20,839 nt of DNA from Cephalothrix simula (Eukaryota; Nemertea; Palaeonemertea; Archinemertea; Cephalotrichidae): assembly GCA_035591015.1 (NCBI GenBank), contig JAXIUW010191401.1:1-20839 (forward strand), in the 5' to 3' direction. The position numbers were made by a program, and so were the translations under genes. Within the stretch, counting starts at the first letter, position 1; the number at the start of each line of letters is the position of its first letter. Shown here piece by piece: positions 1,680 to 20,839 of the stretch. A model generated the notes under the pieces. It saw only the letters and a list, made by a program, of their open reading frames with translations, had not been told where the DNA came from and did no database searches.

Positions 1680-4600
1680 AATTTGGTGGCTCAAATGGGA
1701 ACGTTCAAAGAACAAGTTGTGATAAAAGATGACGAGATTAAATCGTTACAGATGCGTCTCGAGTCTAATCAGAAAGTAGCTGATCTGTCGTCAAACCAGA
1801 ATGATAAAGATGAGATAATACAAACTCTCAAGCTCAATTTTGAGTCCATACTTGAGCAAAAGGAGTCGTCCTATAATAGTCTCAAAGAATCTTTCGAAAA
1901 TTTACAGTCTCAATTAATAAGTAAAATTGAGGCTGTGGAAGTGACTCTTAAGGAGCTTAATTCTGTGCAAAGTCAACTTACCAGTGCTCAATCGGATATT
2001 GACTCACTTAAGTCTCAAAATGAATCACTTAAGTGTGAAAACGAGACTTTAAAATCGGAAATTCATAATGGAAAAGATATTGGATCATCCAATGAATCTC
2101 AAATTGTGACTTTAGAAAACCGGATTTCAGAATTTGAATCAAAGTTAACTGTAAAAGATTCTGAAATTTTGAAATTAAATTCAGATTTGGAAAATTTAAA
2201 AATTCAGTTGTCCGAAAAAGACGTTCGTATTCGTGATTTAGAACTTGTTGAAAATGTGGTATCCGAAAAAGAGTCTGTGATTGAAAGTTTGCAAACGGAA
2301 CTCTCTAATACTGTTGAAAAACTTTCAAATATTAATGAAAAATTATCTGAAGGTCAAAGAGCTATTAGTGATTTACATACTGATCTAAATAGTGCTAATG
2401 AATTGCAGTCAAAAACCTCTGCTGATCTAAAGACTGCCTGTGACAATCTACAATCTAGTCAAGAAAAAGTATTCCATCTCGAAAAAGAACTAAGAGACGG
2501 GGAATTGACAATTAATAGCTTAAACGATCGAATAAACAGTTTGAAACGTGAAGCTGATGTCCTAAAACAAGGTCAAACCGATCAGGGTCAACAAATCGAA
2601 ACGAAACTTCAGGACTTACTCTCGCAATTAACGGAACGTGAATCCGAAATAACCAAATTGAATGCCACCAAAAGTGACCTTGAACTATTAGTTAATCAAT
2701 TAACATCTGATTCTGATGCAAAAAGTGCTGAAATCAGTAAACTAAACAGAGAACTTTCGAACAGGATTAAACAGTATGAAGACCAGATTAATTGCAAACA
2801 ATCTGAAATTAATGACATATCAGCTCAGTTAAATGAGGTGGAAAAGTCATTTATAGAAAAGGAGAAATATGTAACTGAACTTAGAACCGAGTGTGATGAT
2901 TATAAATCCCAGTGTGAAAAACTGAACTCTCGTATTCGTGATTTAGAGTCCCAAAACGTTGAAATAGATTCTACCTTAAATTCACTGAAATCTGATTTAT
3001 TAAATGCCAAAACTGATAATCAGGCATTGCAATCGCAAATATCTGAAAAAGATTCCAAAATCAGTTCTATAGAAACTAATTTAATCGACGCAGAAGAAGT
3101 TCTTCACGATAAAAATGCCAAAATCTTAAAATTAGAAACCGAATTATTAGATAAAATTACCGAAATTTCTAATTTAAATCATGAACTTGAATTATTACTT
3201 AGTGATAACGAAGAAATTAAAGGATTAAATTCGTCGTTTAGTTCACAAGTAGAGACTTTAACTAGTGATTTAAGTACTGTTAAACAGTGTGTAACTGATC
3301 GTGATTCGGAAATTCATGAACTTAGACATTCTCTCGAAGGATTACATTCCACAGATTCTGAAAAGGACGCTAAAATTAGTGAATATTTATCGAAAATAAC
3401 TGAATTAAATGAACTTATAAATGAAGGAGTCTCAAAAGTTGATTCATTGGATAATGATCTTATGGCAGCTCACGATAAGATATCGCTACTTGAAACTGAA
3501 ATCACCGAAAAATCGTCTCAAATATCGTCACTAACTGGTGACTTAGGAGAAGCAATTGACGATAGGGAAAAATTAAAACATTCTGTTAATGAACTAAGTA
3601 CCAAATTTAAGGAATTATCTGATAGTGTTAGTGAAATAAAAACAATTAATAATAATAATGTTGAGACGTTAAAATTAGAGCTCAAAAATGTATCTAGTAG
3701 ACTATCAGAGCGAAACGTGGCAATTCAACAAAAACATGATGAAATAGACTTATTAAATTCTGCATTGATTATTTACAAACAGAATCTGTTTTCAATGAAA
3801 GAATCATTCCAGGAATCCCAAAAAGCTTACCAAGAACAGTTGTCCCAATGTACTGCTGATTTCGAAGGTGCAAAATCCCAAATTGACTCCCTAACTACTG
3901 AACTCGATTTAACAAATAGTGATTTGAAAAAAGCTAATGAGCAACGAGGGTCACTACATATTCAGGTAGATGCTTTAGAAAAACATCTTCGTGAAAAGGA
4001 TACCATTGAACATGGATTAAATGACCAAATCAATAGTCTCAGACGCGAGATTGATATCCTGAAAGAAGGCCAGACTGAGCAGGGTCGTCAGGTTGAGACT
4101 AAGCTTCAAGACCTTTTGTCTCAACTAACTGAACGTGAAGCAGAATTAACGCAAACAAATGCAGCTAAAAAGGAACAAGAAGTTAAAATCAGTCGCCTTA
4201 ATTGTGATATAGAAACTCAATCTTCTGAAATCAATAGATTAAAGAATGAGTTTTCAATCGAAATAAACAATCTCGATGACCAATTAAGTCAAAAGCAAGA
4301 TACTATTGTATCCCTGTCGAATGATCTTGAGTCTCAAAGAGAAATTTCCGCTTCTCTGAAGTCACTGAATGATACAACTAATGAGGATTATAAATCACAA
4401 TTAGATTCTCTGAACTCTAAAATAAGTGATCTTGAAGTTCAATGTGCTGATAAAGAATCTGTGATTGAAAATCTCAAAACCGAATGGGAGAAAGAACGTA
4501 AAACTCATGCCGACGAACTGCATTCGAAAGATGAAATCAACCAGTCTATAATAACTGAACTTGAAGCTTCAAAAGTCACTTGTCAAAAACTTGAGGCGGA

Positions 4601-7600
4601 TTTGAAGGTAAAAACTGATGATCTCGTAGCAACAACCCAGGAACTAGAGAGTGAGCAACAAAAATTGTTCGAGAGGTCATCGGAAACCGAACGGTTGGAT
4701 ATTGATTTGAATGTCCTTCGTGAAAAGTTCCAGACCTCAATTCAGGAGAAGGATGAGCAAATGAATGGTTTGATTGATGACCTCGCTAGTATGAAAAAGG
4801 AGTTATTGACCTACGTTGATGATAACAAACTATTGAAAACAATGATTGAGGTTGATCTAAAAGGTTCTGTTGATGAGAAGGATAAAGTAATCGATATGCT
4901 TGATTTGACTATTGAAAATCTCAAATCTGAGATTAAAAGTTTTGACATGGAGATTTCGGAATTGAGGTCAAGCGTTACTCGATTATCTGAGGAAAAGGAT
5001 AGTCTTGATAAAGAGTTAACTGAAAAAATCAATAAATTGATAGAGCTTGAATCTAAGTTCTCGGAAGTTGATGAAAAATATAAACGATGCTCAGCTGAGC
5101 TTGAAGAAACGAAATTCTGTCTCAGCAGCGCAACCGATGAGCTTGATAAGCAGAATTCTGATCTTTTTGGTCGTGACGAACAGGTCAATCAGTTAACTCA
5201 ATCAATTGATACGTTGACGACTGAAAAAACGAAGTTATCAGCTGATCTAGACGAGCACGTTTCCAAGAACAAGTCTTTGACTGAAAAAGTCGAGACTCTA
5301 ACTAAAGAGAAGTCTAGACTTGATGAGTTGTTAACCAAAACTCAAGATGATGTATTGGAGCTTAAGACTGCTCTTTTGGATTTAAACCATGAACGAGATA
5401 ATCTTCTCTCTGATAAGGATAATGTAACAGTTCAACTGCAATCTGAACTTGATAGATATAAAAAAGAAATAGAAGACCTTAAGTATGAAAATGAAGAGTT
5501 GAATAATAGATTAGAGGAAAGTAACATTAAAATAATAAATATGAAAGAAGATATTGACTTGATGGTTAGCGATTCATCGGAATTAAGTTCGAGAAACGAG
5601 GAACTTCATGAAGCCAAAGAAAGTCTAGAAAACATCGTCAGTCAGTTACAGAAGCAAATTGAGATAGTAACCAAGCAACGCCAGGAGGCTTTGAAGGAAA
5701 AAGATGGAGAAACGTCAACACTCATAACCGAAAAGCAAGAGTTGGAAAATAAGTGCCGAATTCTGGAGGAGCATCTTACAAGCGTTGCTACTGAAAATGA
5801 GAGCATCAAAAACCAAGTTCAAGACCTGGTAGCTGAGGTTGAAAATCTTATTGAAATCAAAACGGGACTTGGTGATGAAATTGAAAGTTTACAAAAGGTG
5901 ATCTCTGATCAAAAAGATGATGTTGCTGCTCATGTTAATGAGAAAAAAGAACTTAAAGATCTAATTAATGAACTTGAAAAGGCTAGTGCTGAATTCAAGT
6001 TACAGATAGCTGAACTTGAGAGTCAGGCTAGTTCTCATGTTGAAAGAGTCACAGACCTTGAAAACCAAGTATCGTCCATAGCAACTGAAAATGATGCACT
6101 AAAAATTGAAGTTTCAAGATTAACTGATGAGTTGAGTGATAGTAAAGGCACTCATTCTACATTGAATGAGTCTTTGAATGATATGGCTGCAAAGATACAA
6201 GAAAAAGATCTGGCAGTGACGTCACAAGTTGAAAACCTCTCAGCTAATTTGTCTGAAATGGTTGAGAATAATAAAGATCTTTCACAAAAACTTGCTGAAG
6301 CTTTAATGAAAGATGAAGACCGGTCTTCTAAAATGAGTGCATTGAAAGCTGATAAAATGAGCTTAGAGTCGCAGGTTTCTAAGTTAACATCTGAAATGAC
6401 AGAGGAACGAGCTCAAAATGAAGTAAAGTGCCAAGAATTGATGACAAATTATGAAAATCTGTCCAAGCACTTGAAAGAAAGAGATTCTGAAGTAAATGAC
6501 CTTACTGAACAAGTACAAGAGCTGACTGATAAAGTTCTCACTCAAACAGCTGATTATGAGAGTCTTTATGCTAACCTGGCCTCTCATAAGGAAGTCTCCG
6601 AAGATCTGAAGGAAAAATACACTTCTGCCCAATCAACAATCGATCAGCTGGAAACTTCTCTTTCCACTTTAAAAGCTGAAAATGAAGAATTAAAGTCTCA
6701 AATCGAAAATGTAACTGAACAATTATCAGTTCAGTTATCTGATAATGAAGGTGCTAATGAAAATCTCAACGTCATAGCATCTGAACTTGAGAAGTCTCAA
6801 GCCAAAAATCAAATTCTACTTGACCAGGTACAGAATCTGACCGATCAAATTTCGTTGGAAATGGATGAATCGCATAACTTGGCTCAAGAGTTAGCTGATA
6901 TAAAAGTAGGGTTAGAGAATGCACAAACTCTAATAAGTGACAAAGACCAAGAGATTCATAACCTAACTTCTCAAGTCCAAAACTTGAGTGATCAGCTCTC
7001 TGAACAAAGATCGGAAAATTCTGATTTGAGTGAAAAATTGGGTGACATGGTCTTACATCGTGATCGTACTAATAGCTTGCTTAAGGACCGTGAATCTCAA
7101 GTTCAAACCCTTCGTGACCAAGTTTTAGAAATGACAGAGCAAGTTTCAACTCAAGCTGAAGAATATAAAGAGCTCAATGGAAAGTTATCAGATTCAGGAA
7201 AGGATTACGAACGTCTTCAGTATCAAATCGAATCACTACGAAATGAGTTAAAGAAACAGAAAGATGAGAACACAGAAAAAGACAGCCAGTTCAAAATGAT
7301 TGCTGGACATTTACACGATAGAGAAGTTGATGCCACAAAACTTGAAGAGGAAGTGCAACGTTATCAAGATCAGATTGCATCTATCAGTAAAGAATTGTCG
7401 CAGACTTTGGAAACACTTCGTGATGTTCAAGAAACCCTTAAAACTCGTGAAAGTCAAGTTTTACAAAATCAAGAAGTCATTCAAGATCGAAATGATGAAG
7501 TTGAATCCTTAAGATTAGAGCTCCAAGCCAAGAATCATGACTTTTTCTCACTTGAGGAGGAACTGAAAGTTACCAAGGACTCTCTTGTTGCTAAGGATTC

Positions 7601-10600
7601 AAGTATCAAAGAAATTGAGTCTGATCTCCTTCTAAAATCCGAATCTTCCAAAGAGTTAAAACAATATATTGAGTCGCGTGATAATGAGCTTACTGATTTA
7701 CGTGGCCTACTCCAGCAAAAAATAGCTGAAGTGATTAGTTTAAATGAAGAAATGTTAGTAATGAAAGAGCATCGTGAAGATGTAGAAAATGAGCTAAAAA
7801 GTACCATTCAAACGTTGACTGCTCGTGAAAATCAGTTAACTGATACCCAAAACCTGCTGCAAGAAAAGATGCTATATTTTGAACAGATGCAAGGTGAAAT
7901 GACGGCTTTAAAGGATATTTGCCGTTCATCACAGAATGACCTAAGAAGTGTCAATGCTACTTTGCAAGCTCGTGAAGTCCAGTTAATTGACGCACAAAAT
8001 GTTCTTCAGTTAAGAAACGAAGAAAACGAAAATCTCAATGAGGAAATTCAGCAATTGAAGTCTAATTGTGATAAATTAGGTGAGAATTTTGTTTCAACAA
8101 AAACAACTCTTGCTGAAAAAACTGATGAATTGGAAAGCATGAAAGCAGCTCTTTGTGAAGAACAAGAACGTGTCACCAGTCTTGACCAACAGCTAGAGGA
8201 ACTGATTCAACAAACCCAATTTCAGTTCAAAGAACTTCAAAGAAACATCAGTGATAAAGAGCAAGAATTGAAGTCCAAAACATCTGAACTAGAACTTTCT
8301 ATTCGTGAAGTCGAGACATTAACATCCGACCTTGAACAAGCAAGAAGTGACCTCGAAACTAGTCTTGATGAGAAAAACAAACAGGCTCATGATTTGGATG
8401 AAAGTTCCGAAAATTTAACAATATCTAATGATAAAATAGAGAGACTAGAATTGGAAGTCGAAACTTTGAAGTCTGAAAATTCAGCATTAAAGAATAAAAT
8501 TGAAGAAAACAACTTGAAGGTCGAAGCTTTGACTGCAAATTTGAATGAAGCTGGGCAGCAACTAGAGTTGACTTCAGCTACAGTCGATGTTCTCAAACAG
8601 CAAGTTGAGTCAGCATCTCAAAGTGAAAGTGATGTGATGTCAACTCTGAAAAATAAGGATGATGAGCTGCTGAAATTGACTGAAAGGCTGCAGCAGTCAA
8701 ATGCAAAACTTCAAGATAGTGCTCAGACGATAAGTTCTCTTGAAAACGATGTGAAGTCTACATTACGGCGTGAAGTAGAACTTAAAGAGACAGTAGCTGA
8801 AAACAATCACGTGATTCAAAGTCTTGACGAAAAAATTCTTCAACTTAGCTCTCAGTTAAAAGACTTTGATAAAAACGAGGAGTTAGTCGAAAAATTAAGA
8901 AAAGAATTGAAAGAAAGTTTGAACACAATTGAAGAGAAAGATCTTAAGATTGAAAACCTTAAGGACAGTCTAAATGATACTTCAGCCAAAATTGAGGAGT
9001 TCATTAGGAGACTGCATGAAGTAGAGATTGATCTTGATCAGTCTCGACAAGAAGCCGACGTTATGAAGCAGGAACTTGAAAAAGCATCGGCAGTTGAAGA
9101 AAAACTCCTCCAGTCACTTAAAGATAAAGAGTGTAAGATATTGTCTGTGTACGACTGTCTCAATGAGTCTCAATCGAGTATAAATGACTACAATGAGATG
9201 ACCGAACAATTAAAGGCTGATATTGATAAATTGCAGCGTCAAAATCAAAACTTAGTTCTTGAACTTGAAAGCGTCAATTCTGACTTAGAAATGCATTCTG
9301 AAAGAGATGATGAAGTGAATAAAAGGTTCCATGAAAATGAAGAACTCCTTCGTGAATTAAGTGATGAAAAACAAGGTCTTCTTAGTCAGATTGAAGCATT
9401 GCAGATTGGTTTAAAATCAGTTGGAGCTGAACTTAGTGAAGAAAAGTCAAATGCTGTAATAATAAATGAAGAGAATGAGGCAATGAAGGGTGAAATATCT
9501 GATTTGACAAAAGAATGTTACGAACAGAGTCTAACGATTGGTGAGTTACAAGATGACGCTAGAGAAGCACGTGACAAGATTGAAAATTTAACGGAGCAGT
9601 TGAAAACACAGATGCAGTTAACTGACAAACTCCATCTACAGTTCAACGAAAAAGATGAATTGATAAGTCAATTAACTGAAGAATTAAAGGAAACTAAAGC
9701 CGAGTTGGTTAAGACGCTTGATGGCTCTGATACCCGAATTCAAGACTTGAGGGCTGAGTTAGCTGATACGGCTGCTAAGATAAAAGAGCTTGAAGCGGCT
9801 CTTTTACAAGGTACAGAATCGCATAATTTATCCATCCTTGAACTAGATGAGAAAGAGAATCAACTTTCCGAGCTTAAAAACATGTTACGTGAAAGTTGTA
9901 ATGAGGCTGAAGATGCAAAAAGGATAAAAGATGCTCTAGATGATGAAATCAATCAATATAAAGAACGTGAAATAAAATTAGTCGAAAAATTATCTGAAAA
10001 AGAGAAAACTGTTCTTGAAGTACAGAAGGAAATCGAATCATTAAAAGATATGAATATGAAATTAGTTTCTGAGAAAGATGAGGGTGCATCTTCAAAGGAT
10101 GAGTTAGTGCAGAAGAAAGATGAAGAAATTAATTCTTTGAATAAGTACATCGGTGAGCTAAGAAATCAATTCGAAGTTTATACCAATGAGTTTGAGAAAA
10201 TGCAGGGTGTTGTTGATGCCTACAAGAAACGTGAAGATGGTCTTCTTGATGATCTCCAAGAAAAAGATAAGAAATTAAATGAAGCTCAAGTTGAACTTGA
10301 AAATAGAGACAGTGGTTTATCTTCGTTACGAGATAGCATTGAGTCATTCAGAACAAGTGACGCTGAATTAAAAACTGGTGTTTCTCAGACCCAGAATGAA
10401 AATGTTGATCTGAGAGATAAGATGTCTGTGATGCTCCGTGTTGAAAGTGAATATATGGAGAAACTAGATGAAAAAGATTCCAAAATATTCCATCTTGATA
10501 CTGTTATAGAAGAACTGAGGAGAGATGCATCTTCTCAGCTCGAAAAATATAATGAAATGAATATTCTTTGCACATCATTAAAAGAAACTATCGAGAACTA

Positions 10601-13600
10601 TGCAGATGCCATGAATGAGAAGGAGACGAGAGCTAAAGAACTTGAAGATCTGAATCGTGACCTAGTTAGTGAAATCGACTCTCATAAATCAGGGTTAAAA
10701 GATGCTCATGCAAAGGTGTTTGATTTGGAAGCTTTAGTGAATGAAAATAATGCAGTGATTTTTGAAAAGGACAAGTTGATAGCTGATTATGTAAATATTT
10801 GCAAGTCTTTCGAATCTGATGTCCAACTTCATAAGGATCAGCTGTCTGAAATACGCCATCTTTTGTCTGAAAGTGAAAATAAAGTGGCATCTTTGGAAAC
10901 CGATTTATCTAGTAAGGAAGACATTATATCTGAACTAAACATCAAATTGGATAATTTAGCAGTTGAAAATAAATCAATTAAGAATGAACGTGATCATTTA
11001 CATTCTCAAATTAGTCTGACAGACAAGAACGACAGTGAAAAAGATCATCAAATTTTAGAGCTTGAGGAATTAGTTCGTAATTTAAGAGAACAGACTGCTC
11101 TAATGTCAAATGAAAGAGCTGATTTGCTGAAAAACCAAAGTGAGCTGTCAGAGAAATTAGGATATCTAACGGAACTAGAGAATGAATTAGATCAGAAGTC
11201 TAAGTTAATAGCGGAGCGTGATGATCACATAAAACGTTACAAAGATTTTTCTGATAATCTTAATGCTGATGTTCAAAGGTATGCTTATGGAATGGAAAAT
11301 CTTGAGATACAACTTACAGAATCATCAGCTTTGATTAAAGAAAAGGAAGATGTTATCCATACTCTTGATGATACGATCATGTTACTTAAGAGTAAAGTCG
11401 AAGCTTACGAGGTTGAATACAATGATTTGAGTGATAAGTTGGCTGAAAAAGATGCAATTGAAAAACAGCTTAATGAAAAGATGAGCATCATCTTGTCGAA
11501 AGAGTCCGAAATTGCAGCTCTCTCTGCTACAATTGAGTCCTGTAGAGATGAAATGATGAATTCATCTGGAGCTAGTCACTTTTTGATTCAGGAGAAAGAT
11601 GCAAGAATAAACGAGTTGGCTGAATCAATTAATATTATGAACTTGCAAATTGCGGACTATGCTAAAGAGTATGAAAATGCTATGTCAGTTATCAGCAACC
11701 TTGAAGAACAAATTGAGATGATGAAAACTGAAAATGATGTGAAAGACAAGGAGCTGAAAACCCTTAAAAACAATGCGGAAGAAAAAGAAATGAAATTGGC
11801 TTCGCTAACGGAAAATTTAATTGAAATGACTCAAGAACTACAAAGTAAGGAAGAAGAGTTAAGAACTGTGCAGTCTCAATCTCCTGACCCCGAAAAGATG
11901 AATGAAAGAGAGAAAAAATATGCCCTCTTGACTCAGAAAGCCAAAGCATTCAAAATTCAAAATACGAATCTTCAGGCTGAATTAACTCGTATTCGAGATG
12001 AACATACTGAACTAATGAATGAACGAGCTTATCTGACTGAATTAGTGCTGGAAAAAGAAACTAAAATAAACACGATGCAGTCAGAAAGAGAACAGATCGC
12101 CCTCGAAATTCAAAATCATATCAAAGGATTGAAAGTTGAGCTTGAAAATACCAAAATAGCTAAATCAGAAATTGAAGATGTTTTGAAGTTAAGAGAAGAG
12201 GAGTTGGTATGCCTGAAGCAGTCTTTCTTTCTTCAGGAGAAAATGACTGAAGTTCCGATTCAGAAAGAAGTTATGGCTGTACAGATGGCTTCACCTGATT
12301 CAGCCGATACAGTGGCAGATGTAATGACTGACTTAGCTGAGAAAGATACTCAATTAGCTGAACTAAGGTCAACCATTTTGGAAAAAGACTCAACTATTCT
12401 TCGACTCAGTGACTCACTTAAAGAGCTTAATCATCAGACTGCAGAATACTGGAAAGAAAATGAAAGCTTGCAGATTCGTCTCCGGTCAACAAACGCTCAT
12501 TTAGAATTGGTAATGAAGTCCTCTCCTTCTGATGAAGAACGCATTTTAAAGGAAGAAACGATTATGCAAGTAAGAACAGAAATTGACCAACATATTGCCA
12601 AAAATGATAAGCTAACAGCTCAGTTAATCAAAGCTAAGAAGGTGATTGAAAATCTTAAGTCCAAGCTAAATGATCGTGATGCCAAATTGGCTGATTTAAA
12701 CTCAAGGTTCCATCATCTTTCTAATCAGATTGACTCAAAGAAATTAGGTGATCAAATAGACTCTAGCACAAACACAGATCCTCTGTATAATGAGATGGTC
12801 TCAAATATATTAGCTGATCGAACGGATTCGAGTACAAACACAGATCAAATGTTTGACTCGAATCATACTGAAGGTGACAATATTGAAGGAAAGTTGTTGA
12901 CAGACAAAATAGCTGCACTTCAAGACTCAGAATTACGCTACGAAGAAATGGTAGCATCATTAAATTCAAAACTAACAGCTGCTCAAAAATCCAGCTCTAA
13001 ATTTGAAGATTCAATAAAACTCCTAAATGAAGATTTAAAATTCAAGGAAACCGAATTTGAGGCGATTCGATCGGCTTTAGAAAACAAAGAAATCACATTA
13101 TTGGCTTCCACAGAAAAGGTTGAGAACTTAACCGATGAAAACCGATTCCTAAAGTCCTCACAAGCCAAATTAGAAGCCGACATCGCTGAAATAAATAACC
13201 GTTTGAAGTCTAAAGATGATGAGATATCGGAACACCTGATGCGATATGAAAATCTGAAGAAAGATAATTCAGAAAAGTTAATGTCCCTTTCTGAAAATCT
13301 AACCGAGGTTGAATCTCAGTTGGAAATTTACATGGGTAAGGCAGAAGAGTATGAAAACAATGCTCAGATATTCAGAGAAAAATTCATGACTAAGGATAGT
13401 GATTTTGACAATCTCAAAAAAGTGATTACTGCTAAGGATCTCCAGATATCAGAATTAATGGAATCAATAACTGAAAAAGATGCTCAGCAAAAGAAGTATA
13501 TAATCCTATTAAAGAAGATGAAGCAAAAGATGAATGATGGAAACCGCAGCAGCCCTGAATTTGAGATTAAATCAAAATTCAATGACTTTGAAAGCCAGCT

Positions 13601-16600
13601 ACTTGACAAGAATAGTGCTATTGAAAATTTACAGCGTCAAATAGAAGAGCTACAGGCAACCAATCGAGGTCTCGCAGATGAGAAAAACCAACTAACTGCA
13701 TCTTCGAAATTTCTTGAAGAACAGTGCAAGATGCTTGAAAGCCAATTATCTGATTCTGAATCGTTTCAACCAATTGGGGAGCACAAAGCAGAGATTTTGG
13801 AAAACCAGTTAGCTCATGATTTAACTTCTAAATTATCAATAGCACACTTCAATGTTTTGAATGAACAAGTAAAATTGTTAGAAACAGAGCTCTCTGAAAA
13901 GTCAGCTGTTTGCAAAGTTCAAGAATCAAAATTGAAGATCTTTGAGCAGCAAATGGAAATAATCGAAAATGAACCTTCCTCACCAAAAAGTAAAATCAAG
14001 TTAAGGTTCTTGGAGGAACAGTGCAAACTGTTGGAAGCGGAATTGATGGAAAGCAATTCAAAGTGTGCTATCCAATCTATTCGATTAAAGGTGCTTGAAG
14101 AACAGTGTAACATGCTTGAAGATGATGCCAACAATCAAGAGGTAATCAGTAAAGTGAAAGTATTAGAACAGCAGTGTTCTATTCTTGAAGATGAACTTTC
14201 TGAGAAGTCGAAGATTGATTCTCAAAATCTGAAAGTAAAGGTTTTGGAAGAACAGTTCGAGATCGTTGAAGCTGATCTAAGAGCTGAGAGTGCTAAAGTG
14301 AAGCTTTTGGAAGAACAGTGTAAAATTGCTGAAGCTGATGCTGCAAGAGTGAATGTGCTTGAATCTCAACTGGAGATGCTTGAATCTGAATCGACTTCTC
14401 AAAGGGAGATTGATGCTAAGGTTATCAGTGATTTTGAGTATGAAGTTGAAAACACTAACTCTAAAATAAAATCTCTTGAGCAAGAATTAGAGATTTTAGA
14501 CGAGGAATCAAAATCTTTAAAATCGGAATTGACTTTACAAAGGGAGAATGCTGATAAAAATATTCAAGAAGCTAGTTCCAAAATTAAATTGTTGGAGCAG
14601 GAATGTGAAATACTCGAAGAAGAATCAAGAAATTTGGAAGTTCAGTTGATGATGGCCAATAAGAAATCAGCTCAGAGGAATAATGCCGTAACTAACGTTA
14701 TGGAAACACAATGTGATTTGATAGAATCAGAACTTTCAGAAAAAGTGAACGAAAATGATGTTAAAATGAAGTTTTTGGAGGAACAGTGTCGAATGCTTCA
14801 ATCAGAGTTAGATACAATGAAAGAAAGGGAGTCTTCTAAAGCTAAGCTTTTAGAAGCTCAGTACAATTTGTATGAAACGGAACTTAATGAAAGCTTTGAC
14901 TCTGATAAAGTAAAGTTGCAGTTCTATGAAGCACAGTTTGCATTGCTGGAAGAAGAACTTATGGAACGACAGAAAGAAATTGCTGAAAATAAACCTCGAA
15001 TGAAAATGCTTGAAGCACAATGCGATATGCTTGAATCTGAGTTAGCTGATGTTAATAAAGAAAAGGCTAAAGTTAACATTCTCGAACAGCAATGTAAAAT
15101 GCTTGAAGGTGAACTTGCTGAAGCTGAACGAAGAAATCCTCATGATCCTGAACTTCGCTATCGTGTGATGCTCAAATCCCAATGCCGTATGCTTGAAGGC
15201 CAGCTAAAAGAAAAAGATAAGGTTATTAAAGAATTAAAATCATTTGGATCGCCAAAGAAGGGAGGAGATAAATCTAAAGACTCTTCTAAGAAAGGATCTA
15301 GAGAATCTCCCAAGAGAGGAATTGATAAATCAACAGCGGTTAGTGGTTTAGAGTTGAAGTGGCAACAGCTTCTAGATAAAGTATCAGAAAAGGAGGAGCA
15401 TATCATGAAATTAAAGTCTGAACTCCACTCCGTGAAAAAGGATTATGTCGATGTTCAGACTGAATTAGACGCAGTACGTGGTGAAGTCAAAGCTGGAGGT
15501 GTTACTATAAAAAATGAAGCTCAACGTATCCAAGAAGAGCTTGATAAAATGCAAACAAGTATGGACTCAAGGAAGGGTGAATTAAGTCTCAGTTCATCAA
15601 TGTTGGATACATCTGATGGGTCTCCCACTCGAGATGGCATGTTTAAATCACTTCAAATCGGGTTGAGACAGCACAAAGATTTCGTCAAGAAGGTAAAAGG
15701 TGAAAATAAGAACTTGACTAAAAAGAATTCTGATTTAGAACTAAAGAATATTGAACTTCAGCAGAAAGTTAGTGATTTTATTGAATTGAAAAATGAAAAT
15801 GACGTTTTGAAAGAAGAAAATCATAAGATGAAAACTGATATAAGTCACTTATTGGCTCAGTTTGATCAAGTAAAAGCAGAAAGGCACCGCATTCAAGGTA
15901 CATTCCATAAGATGAAGGCTGATCTTGATCGTATTCGTAGTGAGAGACGTAACATCCACAAACAGTTTGATAAGTTACGAAAAGAACATGCTAAATGTGC
16001 TAAACAACAAGAAACTCATCTTGCCGAAGTTCATGTTGATATGGGGCCCCTCATGGAAGAAGAACAACGCCAGTGCTCAGAGAGTCCAGAAAGAGTTATG
16101 TCGCCTACATCAACAACAGGAGGCTCTCCAACTCCAAGTCTTTCCTCTGTTACTCCTCCAGGATCAAATGCAACATCTCCGTTACCTATTGATCCAGAAA
16201 TAGAGTCCAAGTACAACATTCTTCAGGATGATTTCGAAAAGATGAAGAACCAAATGGTTGTGAAAGAGTTAAAACTTCAGAAGTTAGTTCCAAAGCTTCG
16301 TGAGTTAAAAGAAAGGAATGATCGTTTAGAAATTCAGGTTCAGAACCTGACTGCTCAACTCGCCGAGACACAACTTCAGTCTGTATCTACTGGAAAAGAG
16401 AATGCTGAGCAGATCAAGATGCTTCAAATGATTGCAGACCTAAAGATGCAACTTAAATCAGCAGAAGAAAGAGTCATCGTGATGCAAACCGAGTCAAAAC
16501 ATCGTGGTAGTGATTTTACATCTGATGGCATGAATAAAATAATGGAAGCCTGGAAGTCTGAAGTGGAACAGCTTAGAAGGGAGAAAAATCACATCACTGG

Positions 16601-19085
16601 TGATTTCAAAGATGATCGAATACATGCTGAGGGAAGGATTCAAACTTTGGAGAATTACAATAGCAGTCTGGAGGAACAGAAAAAGGATCTGATGGAGCAA
16701 TACAACCTCCTTGATTCTGATAACAAAGAGTTGATAAAAACAGTTGAAAGACTTGAGTCAGCAAATAAGATCATTGAAAAGAAACTCCAGGAGCAAAATG
16801 AAACGACGGAGCAACAGGAAAATGTTATCAGTGCCTTGAAAAAGGAGCAAAAGAAGTTGAAAGAACGACTTGAGGAATTTGAAGACCTTGAGACTAAGAT
16901 CACTGAAACTGACTCAGTAAATGAACGTCTTTTTACTCAAGTTGAAGTTGCCCGAAATGAGTTAGCGCGTTTGCAGAGAGAAAACGCTAGCTTAAGACAG
17001 GAAATTGAAGGGTTAACATGGAAAGTTGATGAGTTTACTCAGTTAGAAGAAGATCTTCAGGATCTTCAGAACGAGTTACATCAATTGAAAGCTGAAAATG
17101 GTTCATTAAAAAATGAGCTATCTAAGATGAATTTGAAAGCTACTCAACTTGAGAGTGCTGAAGCTGAATTGGCTACGGTTAGGGAGCAACACAGTTCAAC
17201 TTTGAAAGCAAATGAAGAGTTAATTGAAAAATTGGATATTTTGAAATCGAGGCTGATGGATGCTGATGAAACAGTACTCCTTGGACCAATGACTTCGACA
17301 CCGGAGAAAAGTGCTGCTAGGGAGGAATTAGAAGTGTTACAAGACAAACACAAAACCTTGACTGCTGAAACTGAAACACTTCGTCAGCAGCTTAATTTCC
17401 AAGATTCAGCATCAATCGAAGAATTACAAAAACGTATAGATTTCTTATCGAATGAAAATACAGCCTTAAAAACAGAAGCTCTTCAGTGTAAAGCAAAACT
17501 GATACAGTATGGAAATATTGAAGGTGAATTTATGTCATTGAAAGAGCAGTATGAACACTTTGTTGAAGAGAATGACATTCTGAAATCCCGTGTTTCTGAG
17601 CTTACAGAACGATTAGCTGAGTCTGATAGTGAAACTAGCATCCCTGGACATTCTGATGTTGAGTTTGAAACTTTGAAAAATAATCTTGAATCTTTACAAT
17701 ATCGTTATTCAGAACTACAAGCTGAAAAACAGGCATTAGAAGATAAGTTAGAAGATTTCTCACAGTCTGAAACACCTGATTTGGAAATGCGACTGAATGA
17801 AATAACTGAAGAGAATATAGCTCTGAAAAATGAAGCGTTAAGTTTCAAAGCTAAGATACTTCAGTTCGGAAATATCGAAGAGGAGTTAAAAGATATGAAA
17901 GAGAAGTATGACAAGGTTGTACAAGAGAATGACATCCTACACGAAGACATCTGTGATATGCATGACCAACTGCTTGACTTGAAGAATGAAGTTGATGAAC
18001 TTACTCGTATTAAAGAAAACTTTGATATCGTGAAAGAAAAGCAAGATCATATGAAGGAAGATCATGAAAAGCAATTAAATGAATTAGAGAATGTCATCAT
18101 CGATTTGAAAGAGAAGCTCCAGGCTTTGAAAGAGGAAAAGGAAAGTTTAGAAAAATGGAATGATGACTTTGATGCTTCTGAAAAATTAGAAAAACTTCAG
18201 GAGGAAAATACAGAGCTCAAAAACCAGTTCTTGCAAGTTAAAGCCAAGCTAGTCCAGTATGGAAATATCGAAACTGAATTTAAGGAATTGAAAAAGAAGC
18301 ACGAGGACTTAATGGCGGAGCACGATGACTTGTTAGAAGAAGCTAGTGATTTTGATGATATGATCAAGACATTAAAAGCTGAAAAGCTTGCTTGGGAAAC
18401 TGATAAAGCAGTTTTCCAAGATAATATAGATATTTTGACTAATGATAATGAGTCGCTTATGAACGAAAAGATAACATTAGAAGAAAAACTTGAGGAAACT
18501 ATTGATAAATATGAAGATCTGAAGGCTGAATATGATAGCCACATTAAAGACCGTGCTGAATTGTTACAACAGATAGCAAATTCCGATCATGCTCTTAGAG
18601 TTGAACAAGAACGGTCTAAAATAGAGATTTCAGAACGTCAAATGTCAGCTACTCAGAGTAATCAAGAAATTGATTCACTCAAGTCGGAAATTGACAATTT
18701 GAAATCCGAAATTATCGAACTTGAAAAATCAAAACACAAACTTGTACTTCAACATTCCAGTGATTTAGAAGAGATATCTAATCTTACTGAACAATTAGAT
18801 CTCTTGAATGAGCAATTTGAGGATCTCATGTCTAGTCAAAAGAAGTCTAACGAAGAAGCAACACGTCTTAGGGATCTCCATGACCATGTATCAGCTGATA
18901 ATGCCAGTTTACGATCTCAATTGAATTTGTTGAAGAAGGATGAGTCAGATAAGGCTGTTATTGAACGGCTACGTGCTGAAGCAGATGCTCTGCTGGAGCA
19001 AAAAGCTCGAATCGAAGCAGAGCTTCTTCAATCAGAACAGTCCTATCATCAGTCAGAACTGCGTTACCAACAACTCTCTCTAAAG
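1680..19085 (+). CDS. Giant coiled-coil protein, 17.4-kb internal exon (golgin/lava-lamp-like, tentative)
   Basis: One uninterrupted reading frame of 5,802 codons lies between an acceptor (TTGCAG at 1674-1679) and a donor (AAG|GTAAAT at 19086), both in phase 0. Almost the whole length is heptad-patterned and rich in E, K, S, L, N and D, with about seven tryptophans. Visible order by residue: long rod, with no proline at 1-3401; a 'SPDPE' break near 3401; basic 'KYALLTQKAKAFKIQ' near 3412; two DSSTNTD motifs (3694, 3716); an array of LEEQC-type units (4011-4513); SPKK/SPKR linker (about 4520-4560); SPTR (4648); Ser/Thr/Pro linker (4788-4838); KAKLxQYGNIE repeats (5271-5530). No catalytic domain, signal peptide or membrane segment is seen. 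Such proteins act as long tethers or scaffolds at Golgi membranes, centrosomes or kinetochores. Lysine-rich 'KKYIILLKKMKQKM' and 'LIKAKKVIENLKSKL' segments recall golgins, but this is inference. The protein probably begins in an exon outside the window; the first internal ATG (1695) has C at -3. Family assignment is weak, the exon itself is very secure. Confidence 0.93.
2532..2666 (+). repeat. N-terminal internal duplication, copy 1
   Basis: The 45 encoded residues, starting INSLKRE and ending TKLNA, match those at 4029-4163 (starting INSLRRE) at 34 of 45 positions with no gap. The core 'ETKLQDLLSQLTERE' is identical. The spacing is 1,497 nt, or 499 residues. Most substitutions are conservative (K/R, V/I, D/E). 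This is far more than two coiled coils share by composition, so it points to an old duplication of a rod segment of about 500 residues. Confidence 0.85.
4029..4163 (+). repeat. N-terminal internal duplication, copy 2
   Basis: This is the partner of the segment at 2532-2666. Outside the 45-residue core the similarity fades, although both copies are preceded by an 'LEK-x-LR' turn and followed by Glu/Ser/Asn-rich heptads and a 'DYKSQ...LNS+I+DLE' stretch (+ = K or R). That suggests the original duplication was larger than the part still recognisable. Confidence 0.85.
7434..8040 (+). repeat. Three related 'TLxAREsQLxDxQNxLQ' rod segments
   Basis: Three segments beginning at 7434 (TLKTRESQVLQNQEVIQ), 7812 (TLTARENQLTDTQNLLQ) and 7959 (TLQAREVQLIDAQNVLQ) share the same pattern, each followed by an acidic heptad stretch. 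The second and third are closest. They are 126 and 49 residues apart, so they are not a regular array. They are better explained by local duplication within the rod than by heptad convergence alone, but this is less certain than the pair at 2532 and 4029. Confidence 0.55.
12759..12845 (+). repeat. Paired DSSTNTD motif in the coiled-coil protein
   Basis: DSSTNTD is encoded twice, starting at 12759 and 12825, exactly 22 residues apart, in a short segment with weak heptad character and a proline (DSSTNTDP). The pair sits between two coiled-coil blocks and is likely an exposed linear motif. It loosely resembles the T-Q-T peptides that bind dynein light chain LC8, but asparagine replaces the key glutamine, so I do not assign that function. 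Confidence 0.6.
13710..15219 (+). repeat. Degenerate array of about 18 'LEEQCKMLExEL' coiled-coil units
   Basis: Units of the form [FVLIM]-LE-[EQA]-Q-C-x-[ML]-LE-x-EL recur from residue 4011 to 4513, spaced mostly 17-40 residues apart. Examples are FLEEQCKMLESQL (13710), FLEEQCKLLEAEL, VLEQQCSILEDEL, FLEEQCRMLQSEL, MLEAQCDMLESEL and MLKSQCRMLEGQL (15168). I count about 18, of which about 11 have cysteine at the same place; the others have F, Y, V, M or L there. If the leucines take heptad position d, this residue falls at core position a, so the cysteines would face each other in a parallel dimer. The unit is confined to this part of the protein. I do not know a named domain with this pattern. 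Confidence 0.85.
15237..15350 (+). other. Encoded basic SPKK/SPKR linker
   Basis: Immediately after the cysteine array, the protein leaves the heptad pattern for about 38 residues rich in K, S, G and D, including SPKK (residue 4524) and SPKR (4543). These are proline-directed, CDK-type phosphorylation sequences in a positively charged, probably unstructured hinge. Such segments in other proteins can bind microtubules, membranes or nucleic acid, but no partner can be read from the sequence. Confidence 0.65.
16041..16205 (+). other. Encoded Ser/Thr/Pro-rich linker
   Basis: Residues about 4788-4838 form a second break in the coiled coil, with several S/T-P pairs (ESPE, MSPT, GSPTP, TPPG, TSPL). 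It follows a Lys/Arg-rich helix (HRIQG...DRIRSERRNIHKQFDKLRKEH) and precedes another long coiled coil. It is a likely flexible hinge with multiple proline-directed kinase sites. Confidence 0.7.
16971..18300 (+). repeat. C-terminal 'LQxENxxLKxExxxxKAKLxQYGNIExE' repeats: three clear copies and one divergent
   Basis: KAKLIQYGNIE (17490), KAKILQFGNIE (17847) and KAKLVQYGNIE (18240) each follow an 'ENxxLKN/TE' helix and precede a 'K-x-x-Y/H-x-x-x-x-x-E-N/H-D-x-L' helix. Copies are 119 and 131 residues apart. A fourth, divergent copy begins at 16971 (LQRENASLRQEIEG) with WKVDEFTQLEEDL at the matching place. The codons of QYGNI in copies one and three differ only in the last base of the Ile codon. 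These are true modular repeats of about 120-130 residues, not generic heptads. A G-N pair in the middle of a helix predicts a local kink. Confidence 0.85.
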
Positions 19086-19299
19086 GTAAATTGACATTTA
19101 TATGTCAATCAAAATTTTAAAATAAATAAACTTTATGTTTAAAAATAAATAAACATGACGTTAAAAAAAAATAAACATGACCTTTAAAAAAAAACATGGC
19201 GTTTAAAAAAATAAACATGTCGTTTAAAAAAATAAACATGACGTTTAAAAAAATAAACATGACGTTGAATTATTATTTCAATTTTGTTATTCTTTTCAG
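19086..19299 (+). other. Intron of 214 nt with alternative in-frame stop
   Basis: The donor is AAG|GTAAAT and the acceptor is TTATTCTTTTCAG (ending at 19299); the phase is 0. If unspliced, the reading frame adds only Val-Asn before TGA at 19092-19094. Most of the intron is the 21-bp-type tandem array, which repeatedly carries AATAAA. Confidence 0.85.
19121..19266 (+). repeat. Short tandem repeat, about 7 copies of an 'ATAAACATGACGTTTAAAA' unit
   Basis: Copies are spaced 19-23 bp apart. The last three are the most regular (starting at 19211, 19232 and 19253, period 21). The first (around 19125) and the fourth (around 19191) are the most divergent. Most units contain AATAAA and a TGACGT-like core. 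Eight AATAAA hexamers occur between 19121 and 19257. It is probably a minisatellite grown by slippage inside the intron. Confidence 0.9.
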
Positions 19300-19446
19300 T
19301 TGAATCAAATCGTTGAAGATCGTAATCATCTGTTGATTCGAATGAATGATTCCATGAGAGGTCTTAATGAACGTGATGAGCTAATACAAAACCTGAAAAT
19401 GCAAATAGAAGGCCTCATTAGCAAGGAAACGGTTATACATGAAGAG
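19300..19446 (+). CDS. Coiled-coil protein, next exon (49 codons)
   Basis: This exon lies between the acceptor TTTTCAG and the donor GAG|GTAAAC, and is phase 0 at both ends. It encodes LNQIVEDRNHLLIRM and continues the heptads of the preceding exon (…ELRYQQLSLK|LNQIVEDRN…) through 'ERDELIQNLKMQIEGLI' to HEE. The frame would stay open past the donor to a TAA at 19492, but the residues encoded after it lose the pattern. It encodes only coiled coil and gives no functional clue. Confidence 0.88.
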
Positions 19447-19535: not shown

Positions 19536-19660
19536 GTTGTACCCGACTTGACTGTACCATTAACGAATGAATCTCCAAAACCTACTGAATCTCAAGAATT
19601 AAAAATTCCTGACGGAATGAAGCTAGTCTCTGAAGATCACCTTGCAGAGTTATCACAAAG
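19536..19660 (+). CDS. Coiled-coil protein, third visible exon (41 codons plus 2 nt)
   Basis: This exon lies between the acceptor TTTTAG and the donor AAG|GTAAAG. It encodes VVPDLTVPLTNESPKPTESQ, then ELKIPDGMKLVSEDHLAELSQ, and ends two bases into a codon (phase 2). The residues leave the coiled coil for a Pro/Thr/Ser-rich linker with five prolines, then a short helix, so it probably joins the rod to a C-terminal region encoded beyond the window. No stop codon, polyadenylation signal or terminal domain (GRIP, GRAB or membrane anchor) is present, so the protein continues. Confidence 0.8.
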
Positions 19661-20635: not shown

Positions 20636-20839
20636 TTTCTAACAATTGATTTGTTTTGAAACATAGGACGATTTTATTTTGACATACAAATTTCATAATC
20701 TGAATCGACTGCCATGTTCATTGGGTTGTGTACATTGATTATTACTATCGGGCCATAAATAATGGTCAATTCAATATTATGAAATTCGTATGTCAAAATA
20801 AAATCGTCTTGTGTTTCAAAACAAATCAATTGTTAGAAA
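20636..20839. mobile_element. Foldback (MITE-like) element, cut by the window end
   Basis: The arms 20636-20699 and 20776-20839 are inverted copies of each other, agreeing at 61 of 64 positions without gaps, around a 76-bp spacer that encodes nothing. The right arm runs to the last base of the window, so the true termini and target duplication cannot be seen. The left arm may extend a few bases further out. No transposase is present. The structure is that of a non-autonomous DNA transposon or a long hairpin. It shares no obvious sequence with the foldback element near 1113-1485. Confidence 0.85.

Follow-up and report, generated by a model that had tools for sequence, protein, structure and literature searches.

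The window (the whole 20839-base contig from Cephalothrix simula that was analysed) is most of a single gene encoding a giant coiled-coil protein. Within this protein lies an array of 18 old repeat units that share one heptad register and combine a core layer, usually cysteine, with two hydrophobic residues at c positions. It is proposed, with a probability of roughly 0.45, that the array forms a row of 18 quasi-equivalent segments for docking, with weak packing at the core cysteine and a sticky surface at c.

Gene structure and the repeat units

The longest frame of the contig (1629-19094, + strand) comprises 5821 residues, referred to here as protein P0001. A splice acceptor (TTGCAG/AAT) ends at 1679 and a donor (AAG/GTAAAT) starts at 19086, both read by eye from genomic DNA rather than from a transcript. 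Both signals lie inside the frame, whose outermost bases are intronic, so the start and stop of the frame do not mark the termini of the protein. The terminal exons of the gene lie outside the contig, and hence any signal or membrane segment does too, as would a GRIP or GRAB domain. The exons recognised are as follows:

1680..19085, + strand: one giant coding exon of 5802 codons that begins and ends in phase 0 (splice signals and open reading frame)
19300..19446, + strand: next exon, 49 codons, phase 0 (splice signals and translation, no transcript)
19536..19660, + strand: further exon, 125 bases (splice signals and translation, no transcript)

The giant golgins (giantin, GMAP210 and lava lamp) are very long coiled-coil tethers, and giantin has a large exon like that of this gene; the protein is likened to them by architecture.

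Other repeats occur in the same gene and contig. A 66-base tandem duplication at 12722-12846 encodes the motifs DSSTNTDP and DSSTNTDQ (residues 3713 and 3735), which in our view resemble dynein light chain sites. A basic Ser-Pro-rich stretch (SPKKGG..SPKRG; 15240-15332) begins 11 residues past the last unit of the array; it contains a 24-base repeat (15272-15320) and is non-coil in the heptad model where that is shown. A second repeat family, KAKxxQ(Y/F)GNIExE, is found three times (at 17511, 17868 and 18261; residues 5295, 5414 and 5545). In the intron behind the giant exon there is a 21-base minisatellite of about 7 copies (19116-19266), and an inverted repeat at 20636-20839, with a 28-base exact arm up to the contig's last base, represents either the edge of a mobile element or an assembly fold-back. 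The same assembly includes a 16203-base mitochondrial contig in which TGA encodes Trp, nad6 lies between nad5 and cox3, and the recognised protein genes are on one strand (by eye; atp8 not identified). The TGA usage points to an animal and the gene order may suit a lophotrochozoan, on the assumption that this contig and the window come from one organism. It also includes a bacterial oxidase operon with a cox1 of 599 aa and cox3-like and CtaG-like neighbours (named by eye), probably from a bacterial associate of the animal.

The array was originally predicted to hold about 18 units, about 11 of them with cysteine. A gapless weight matrix confirmed 18, three of them weak, spaced 17-48 residues apart, and Cys occupies the marked column in 11. 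The consensus of the unit is KφKφLExQCxφLExEL, in the register g-a-b-c-d-e-f-g-a-b-c-d-e-f-g-a. Columns are numbered from the first consensus Leu (L0), whose residue number in P0001 is given for each unit:

13701..15206, + strand: the whole 18-unit array, P0001 residues 4025-4526 (gapless weight matrix)
13701..13748, + strand: unit 1, L0 4029, Cys at a
13845..13892, + strand: unit 2, L0 4077, Val at a; weak member
13911..13913, + strand: linker Cys4095, also at a
13929..13976, + strand: unit 3, L0 4105, Met at a; weak member
13998..14045, + strand: unit 4, L0 4128, Cys at a
14064..14066, + strand: linker Cys4146, also at a
14082..14129, + strand: unit 5, L0 4156, Cys at a
14151..14198, + strand: unit 6, L0 4179, Cys at a
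14232..14279, + strand: unit 7, L0 4206, Phe at a
14295..14342, + strand: unit 8, L0 4227, Cys at a
14346..14393, + strand: unit 9, L0 4244, Leu at a
14463..14510, + strand: unit 10, L0 4283, Leu at a; weak member
14580..14627, + strand: unit 11, L0 4322, Cys at a
14688..14735, + strand: unit 12, L0 4358, Cys at a (posterior 0.75)
14763..14810, + strand: unit 13, L0 4383, Cys at a
14838..14885, + strand: unit 14, L0 4408, Tyr at a
14913..14960, + strand: unit 15, L0 4433, Phe at a
14997..15044, + strand: unit 16, L0 4461, Cys at a
15069..15116, + strand: unit 17, L0 4485, Cys at a
15159..15206, + strand: unit 18, L0 4515, Cys at a

With the 18-unit matrix, the top score among 5282 windows outside the array was 9.9. 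An iterated matrix, which had absorbed one outside window (5170) and so differs slightly, gave every unit at least 20, compared with a maximum of 11.5 in 20 shuffles. Leave-one-out scores ranged from 7.7 to 38.6 and exceeded 11.5 in 15 of the 18 units; those at 4077, 4105 and 4283 are weak members because they fall below this shuffle maximum, which comes from the slightly different iterated matrix.

Mean pairwise amino-acid identity of the units is 42%. Glu+1, Gln+3 and Glu+8 are each found in 16 of 18 units and Leu0 in 15. The flanking d positions, expected to hold Leu or Met, do hold Leu (15/18 and 13/18), whereas Met sits at c. At identical residues, third-position identity between units is 0.527, where codon usage predicts 0.480 (1017 comparisons), and the Cys codons, too, vary at the third base from unit to unit. 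Synonymous sites between units are by this estimate near saturation, which suggests that the units are old and that the protein motif has been maintained by selection.

This bears on the possibility that an ancestral unit with Cys was duplicated 18-fold and that its Cys is decaying without function to other hydrophobic residues, the array being a spacer. Duplication is evident from a higher-order repeat of 51 residues (4077-4127 against 4128-4178, 18/51 identical), and of the seven residues that stand in for Cys two are Phe and one is Tyr, the codons of which are one base from a Cys codon. However, Glu+1, Gln+3, Glu+8 and the c positions have been kept despite the near-saturation of synonymous sites. 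Moreover, the a column at -3 is freely mixed (V, L, I, M, A and F among others, the commonest residue in 5/18 units), while the Cys column is far less so (11/18). Such a founder effect is regarded as rather unlikely.

Register, core cysteines and hydrophobic c positions

The register was obtained with a heptad HMM of seven coil states and one non-coil state, trained with the array excluded; three starts converged. In the core that it learned, a is filled by Leu, Ile, Val and Asn and d by Leu, which is a core of the parallel-dimer type. For all 13 Cys of the array (11 in units, 2 in linkers) a is the likeliest state, with a posterior of at least 0.97 in 12; for Cys4362 the posterior for a is 0.75 and the single best path leads to b. 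The core position a named in the original prediction was therefore right. The concentration of Cys in the array was likewise confirmed, at 13 per 504 aa against 29 per 5317 in the rest of the protein (Fisher p 3e-5, overstated since the units are paralogues), and it is specific to the column. Of the 69 a residues within the array 13 are Cys, compared with 11 of the 724 outside (1.5%; Fisher p 6e-9, paralogy lowering the effective n), an odds ratio of about 15.

The hydrophobic c positions, absent from the original prediction, are the strongest feature of the unit and, together with Cys, its most distinctive columns. Position c faces outward in a two-stranded coil and is normally exposed. In the array, the two c positions of the unit are hydrophobic in 17/18 and 18/18 units, and the hydrophobic share at c is 48.5% over the whole array as against 10.7% outside. 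Measured against a heptad-matched background, c+6 is the most informative column (3.50 bits), followed by the Cys column (a+4, 2.68) and c-1 (2.63). Adjacent heptads that both have hydrophobic residues at a, c and d were seen at 11 of 51 positions in the array and at only 1 of 644 outside. The next d positions lose core hydrophobicity (strongly hydrophobic in 5/18 units at +14 and in 2/18 at -7); hence each unit is a two-heptad cassette and no part of an even stripe.

Lys or Arg at g(-4) is combined with Glu or Asp at e(+1) in 14/18 units. Charge pairing between g and e' is usual in parallel coiled coils, and with the learned core these pairs would favour an in-register parallel dimer. A low-confidence structure prediction of a single chain, made with no alignment (mean pLDDT 71, pTM 0.26), gave eight helices of 16 to 97 residues.

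In such a dimer the 13 core Cys of each chain would face their own copies and could cross-link on oxidation, as a disulfide ladder or redox switch. That all 13 are placed at a, with about 15-fold enrichment over other a positions and with codons differing at the third base between units, is in keeping with this. A precedent exists in the solved structure of PLVAP CC1, a parallel dimer whose chains are joined by five disulfides (PMC10083539). An engineered lamin Cys at the core after the coil 2 stutter locks the coil when oxidised, and the interaction with coil 1a is abolished only in the oxidised state (PMC7824274). The PLVAP coiled coil, with its Cys paired across chains, is extracellular and disulfide-bonded; the passages of the PLVAP report drawn on here describe neither a repeated unit nor a c-position patch (PMC10083539), both of which are present in the array. 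In addition, the lamin mutation Y45C, which puts a Cys in the coil 1A core, forms the disulfide only partially, and its effect on assembly persists under reducing conditions (PMC7407374).

Free exchange of Cys for Leu, Val or Ala in orthologues had been named at the outset as evidence against a thiol role, and among the paralogous units such exchange is partly seen. A hydrophobic residue is always kept and neither Ala nor a charged residue ever occurs, but the thiol is lost in 7/18 units (replaced by V, M, F, L, L, Y and F in array order). The 29 Cys outside the array lie at a (11), at d (5), at positions predicted to fall outside the core (b, c, e, f, g; 12) and in a non-coil stretch (1), and the last 13 would suit a reducing compartment. 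A regular ladder in one continuous register does not agree with the 17-48 residue spacing or with the 8 register jumps that the best path makes in the 521 residues of the array (46 over the whole protein). Overall, a disulfide ladder is judged unlikely; a PLVAP-like ladder would be possible if the protein were secreted or oxidised. Metal binding had also been suggested, but the smallest Cys-Cys distance within the array is 14 residues, or two heptads, which makes a Cys4 site within one dimer unlikely; a metal cluster, which would need close Cys ligands (CxxC or stacked layers), was rejected on the same spacing. Taken together, the original prediction is partly supported, with the core position upheld and the thiol-specific roles weakened.

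Relatives and the resemblance to coil 1A

Three protein-database searches, in which the 1009, 7979 and 7993 best word-sharing candidates were scored, gave no relative at E 0.001, 0.01 and 0.01, respectively, in collections with little animal sequence. Scans of viral and genome contigs, again from collections poor in animal sequence, returned 3 and 22 pattern-matching stretches and no relative. With a one-unit DNA pattern, 4 and 10 stretches (14 contigs) were obtained, of which 8 had one unit-like window above 10 and 6 had none; a tblastn search of phages gave no match. In its own assembly the DNA pattern was confined to the array (6 forward, 0 reverse, 0 control). The lack of an orthologue in animal-poor collections is not evidence for a lineage-specific domain, and near-genome records may be left out of them. 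In the literature on LEEQC, LEQQC and LEAQC, the titles and abstract openings of the best 10 of 26 records mention nothing on the array.

It had been proposed that the array is no described domain, and this stands, with no Pfam family above its cut-off and no significant match in the PDB. The ERM alpha-helical domain (PF20492) was rejected at 21.8 bits against a cut-off of 40, as was a relationship to crescentin, also below the Pfam cut-off. A GRIP search of the assembly found no match, and its 14 controls were likewise empty.

The 18-unit profile retrieved seven PDB sequences at E 0.22 to 8.6, none significant: three are fragments of surfactant protein B (11 columns), one is a designed peptide of 29 residues, and three are vimentin (16 columns; E 0.55, 8 and 8.6). 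The best vimentin match, which scores below the surfactant protein B fragments, is coil 1A of PDB 3G1E, where a gapless 16-residue segment, KVRFLEQQNKILLAEL, aligns with the unit; at E 0.55 this is resemblance and not homology. The segment has hydrophobics at the a (except in the Cys layer), c and d columns of the unit, and in the a layer that Cys occupies in the array it has Asn. This comparison assumes that vimentin numbering serves to carry the lamin register onto the segment, putting Asn at a and a hydrophobic residue at either c. Position d is taken by Tyr45 and Leu59 in lamin A (PMC6704074), and lamin Tyr45 corresponds to vimentin Tyr117 (PMC7407374).

On the unit matrix the vimentin segment scores 25.5, within the leave-one-out range of the units and reached by only 1 in 2,000,000 random in-register coiled-coil windows, in a test made after the match had been found. 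The gapless match and its rarity could indicate that the units are descendants or mimics of intermediate-filament coil 1A and bind intermediate filaments or lamins. However, the E value is 0.55 over the PDB, the random-window test is post hoc, and the Filament rod (PF00038) is absent over the array among Pfam families at E up to 1. In this assembly, where a single candidate was scored, Filament gave no match up to E 0.001 (the control was found in 5/14 genomes, none over the cut-off). The Filament profile does reach 48.7 bits (cut-off 40) in the first 2000 residues of the protein (best stretch 722-941), beside other coiled-coil families, which we read as a generic coiled-coil signal. Coil 1A, the helix initiation motif, is present in a single copy per intermediate-filament protein, as opposed to 18 units in an array in which no filament rod is recognised. 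Descent from or mimicry of coil 1A is considered very improbable.

Proposed docking segments along a tether

The unit is no member of the families tested, and in function it would come closest to a weak docking segment of a coiled coil, here repeated. The coil 1A dimer is marginally stable and unzips (PMC7407374), and the interaction between coil 1A and coil 2 requires coil separation (PMC7824274). In the actin sites of tropomyosin, surface consensus residues are needed along with a poorly packed interface (PMC2710508). Tropomyosin is like the array in that quasi-equivalent surface sites recur along its coiled coil and go together with a weakly packed core; it has seven periods, compared with 18 units 17-48 residues apart. 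The unzipping of coil 1A and the combination of weak core and surface consensus in tropomyosin are the grounds on which the unit is read as a soft, sticky site.

According to the docking proposal, each segment would pair in parallel through a and d, with one core layer holding a small, weakly packing residue, usually Cys, and the two additional hydrophobics at c would form an exposed patch. The segment may thereby be a metastable site, at which the local two-stranded coil loosens and accepts another helix through the c patch, either from a partner or from a second molecule. Eighteen such soft, sticky sites would stand in a row along the tether. Exposed hydrophobics at c need a use, and lateral docking of another helix is the economical reading of them. 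Cys would serve chiefly as a small hydrophobic residue in the core, probably reduced in the cell, for which lamin Y45C is a precedent.

The docking proposal is strained by the Cys itself, kept in 11/18 units as against 1.5% of a positions elsewhere, which a role open to any hydrophobic residue does not explain. A further drawback is that the PMC passages drawn on say nothing of what the c positions do in coil 1A. In a more specific form, which we hold to be quite unlikely, the array would consist of 18 coil-1A-like switch segments that unzip at the Cys layer and re-pair with partner helices, providing graded and possibly redox-tuned capture sites. Such a coil-1A-like switch array, if real, would add an as yet undescribed repeat domain to the coiled coils of animals. 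Long coiled-coil tethers are mostly regarded as featureless, whereas this array keeps a precise unit with a buried Cys layer and an exposed greasy seam, despite synonymous change that is close to saturation; should the seam serve for docking, the unit would provide a short peptide directly testable for a partner and for dimer opening.
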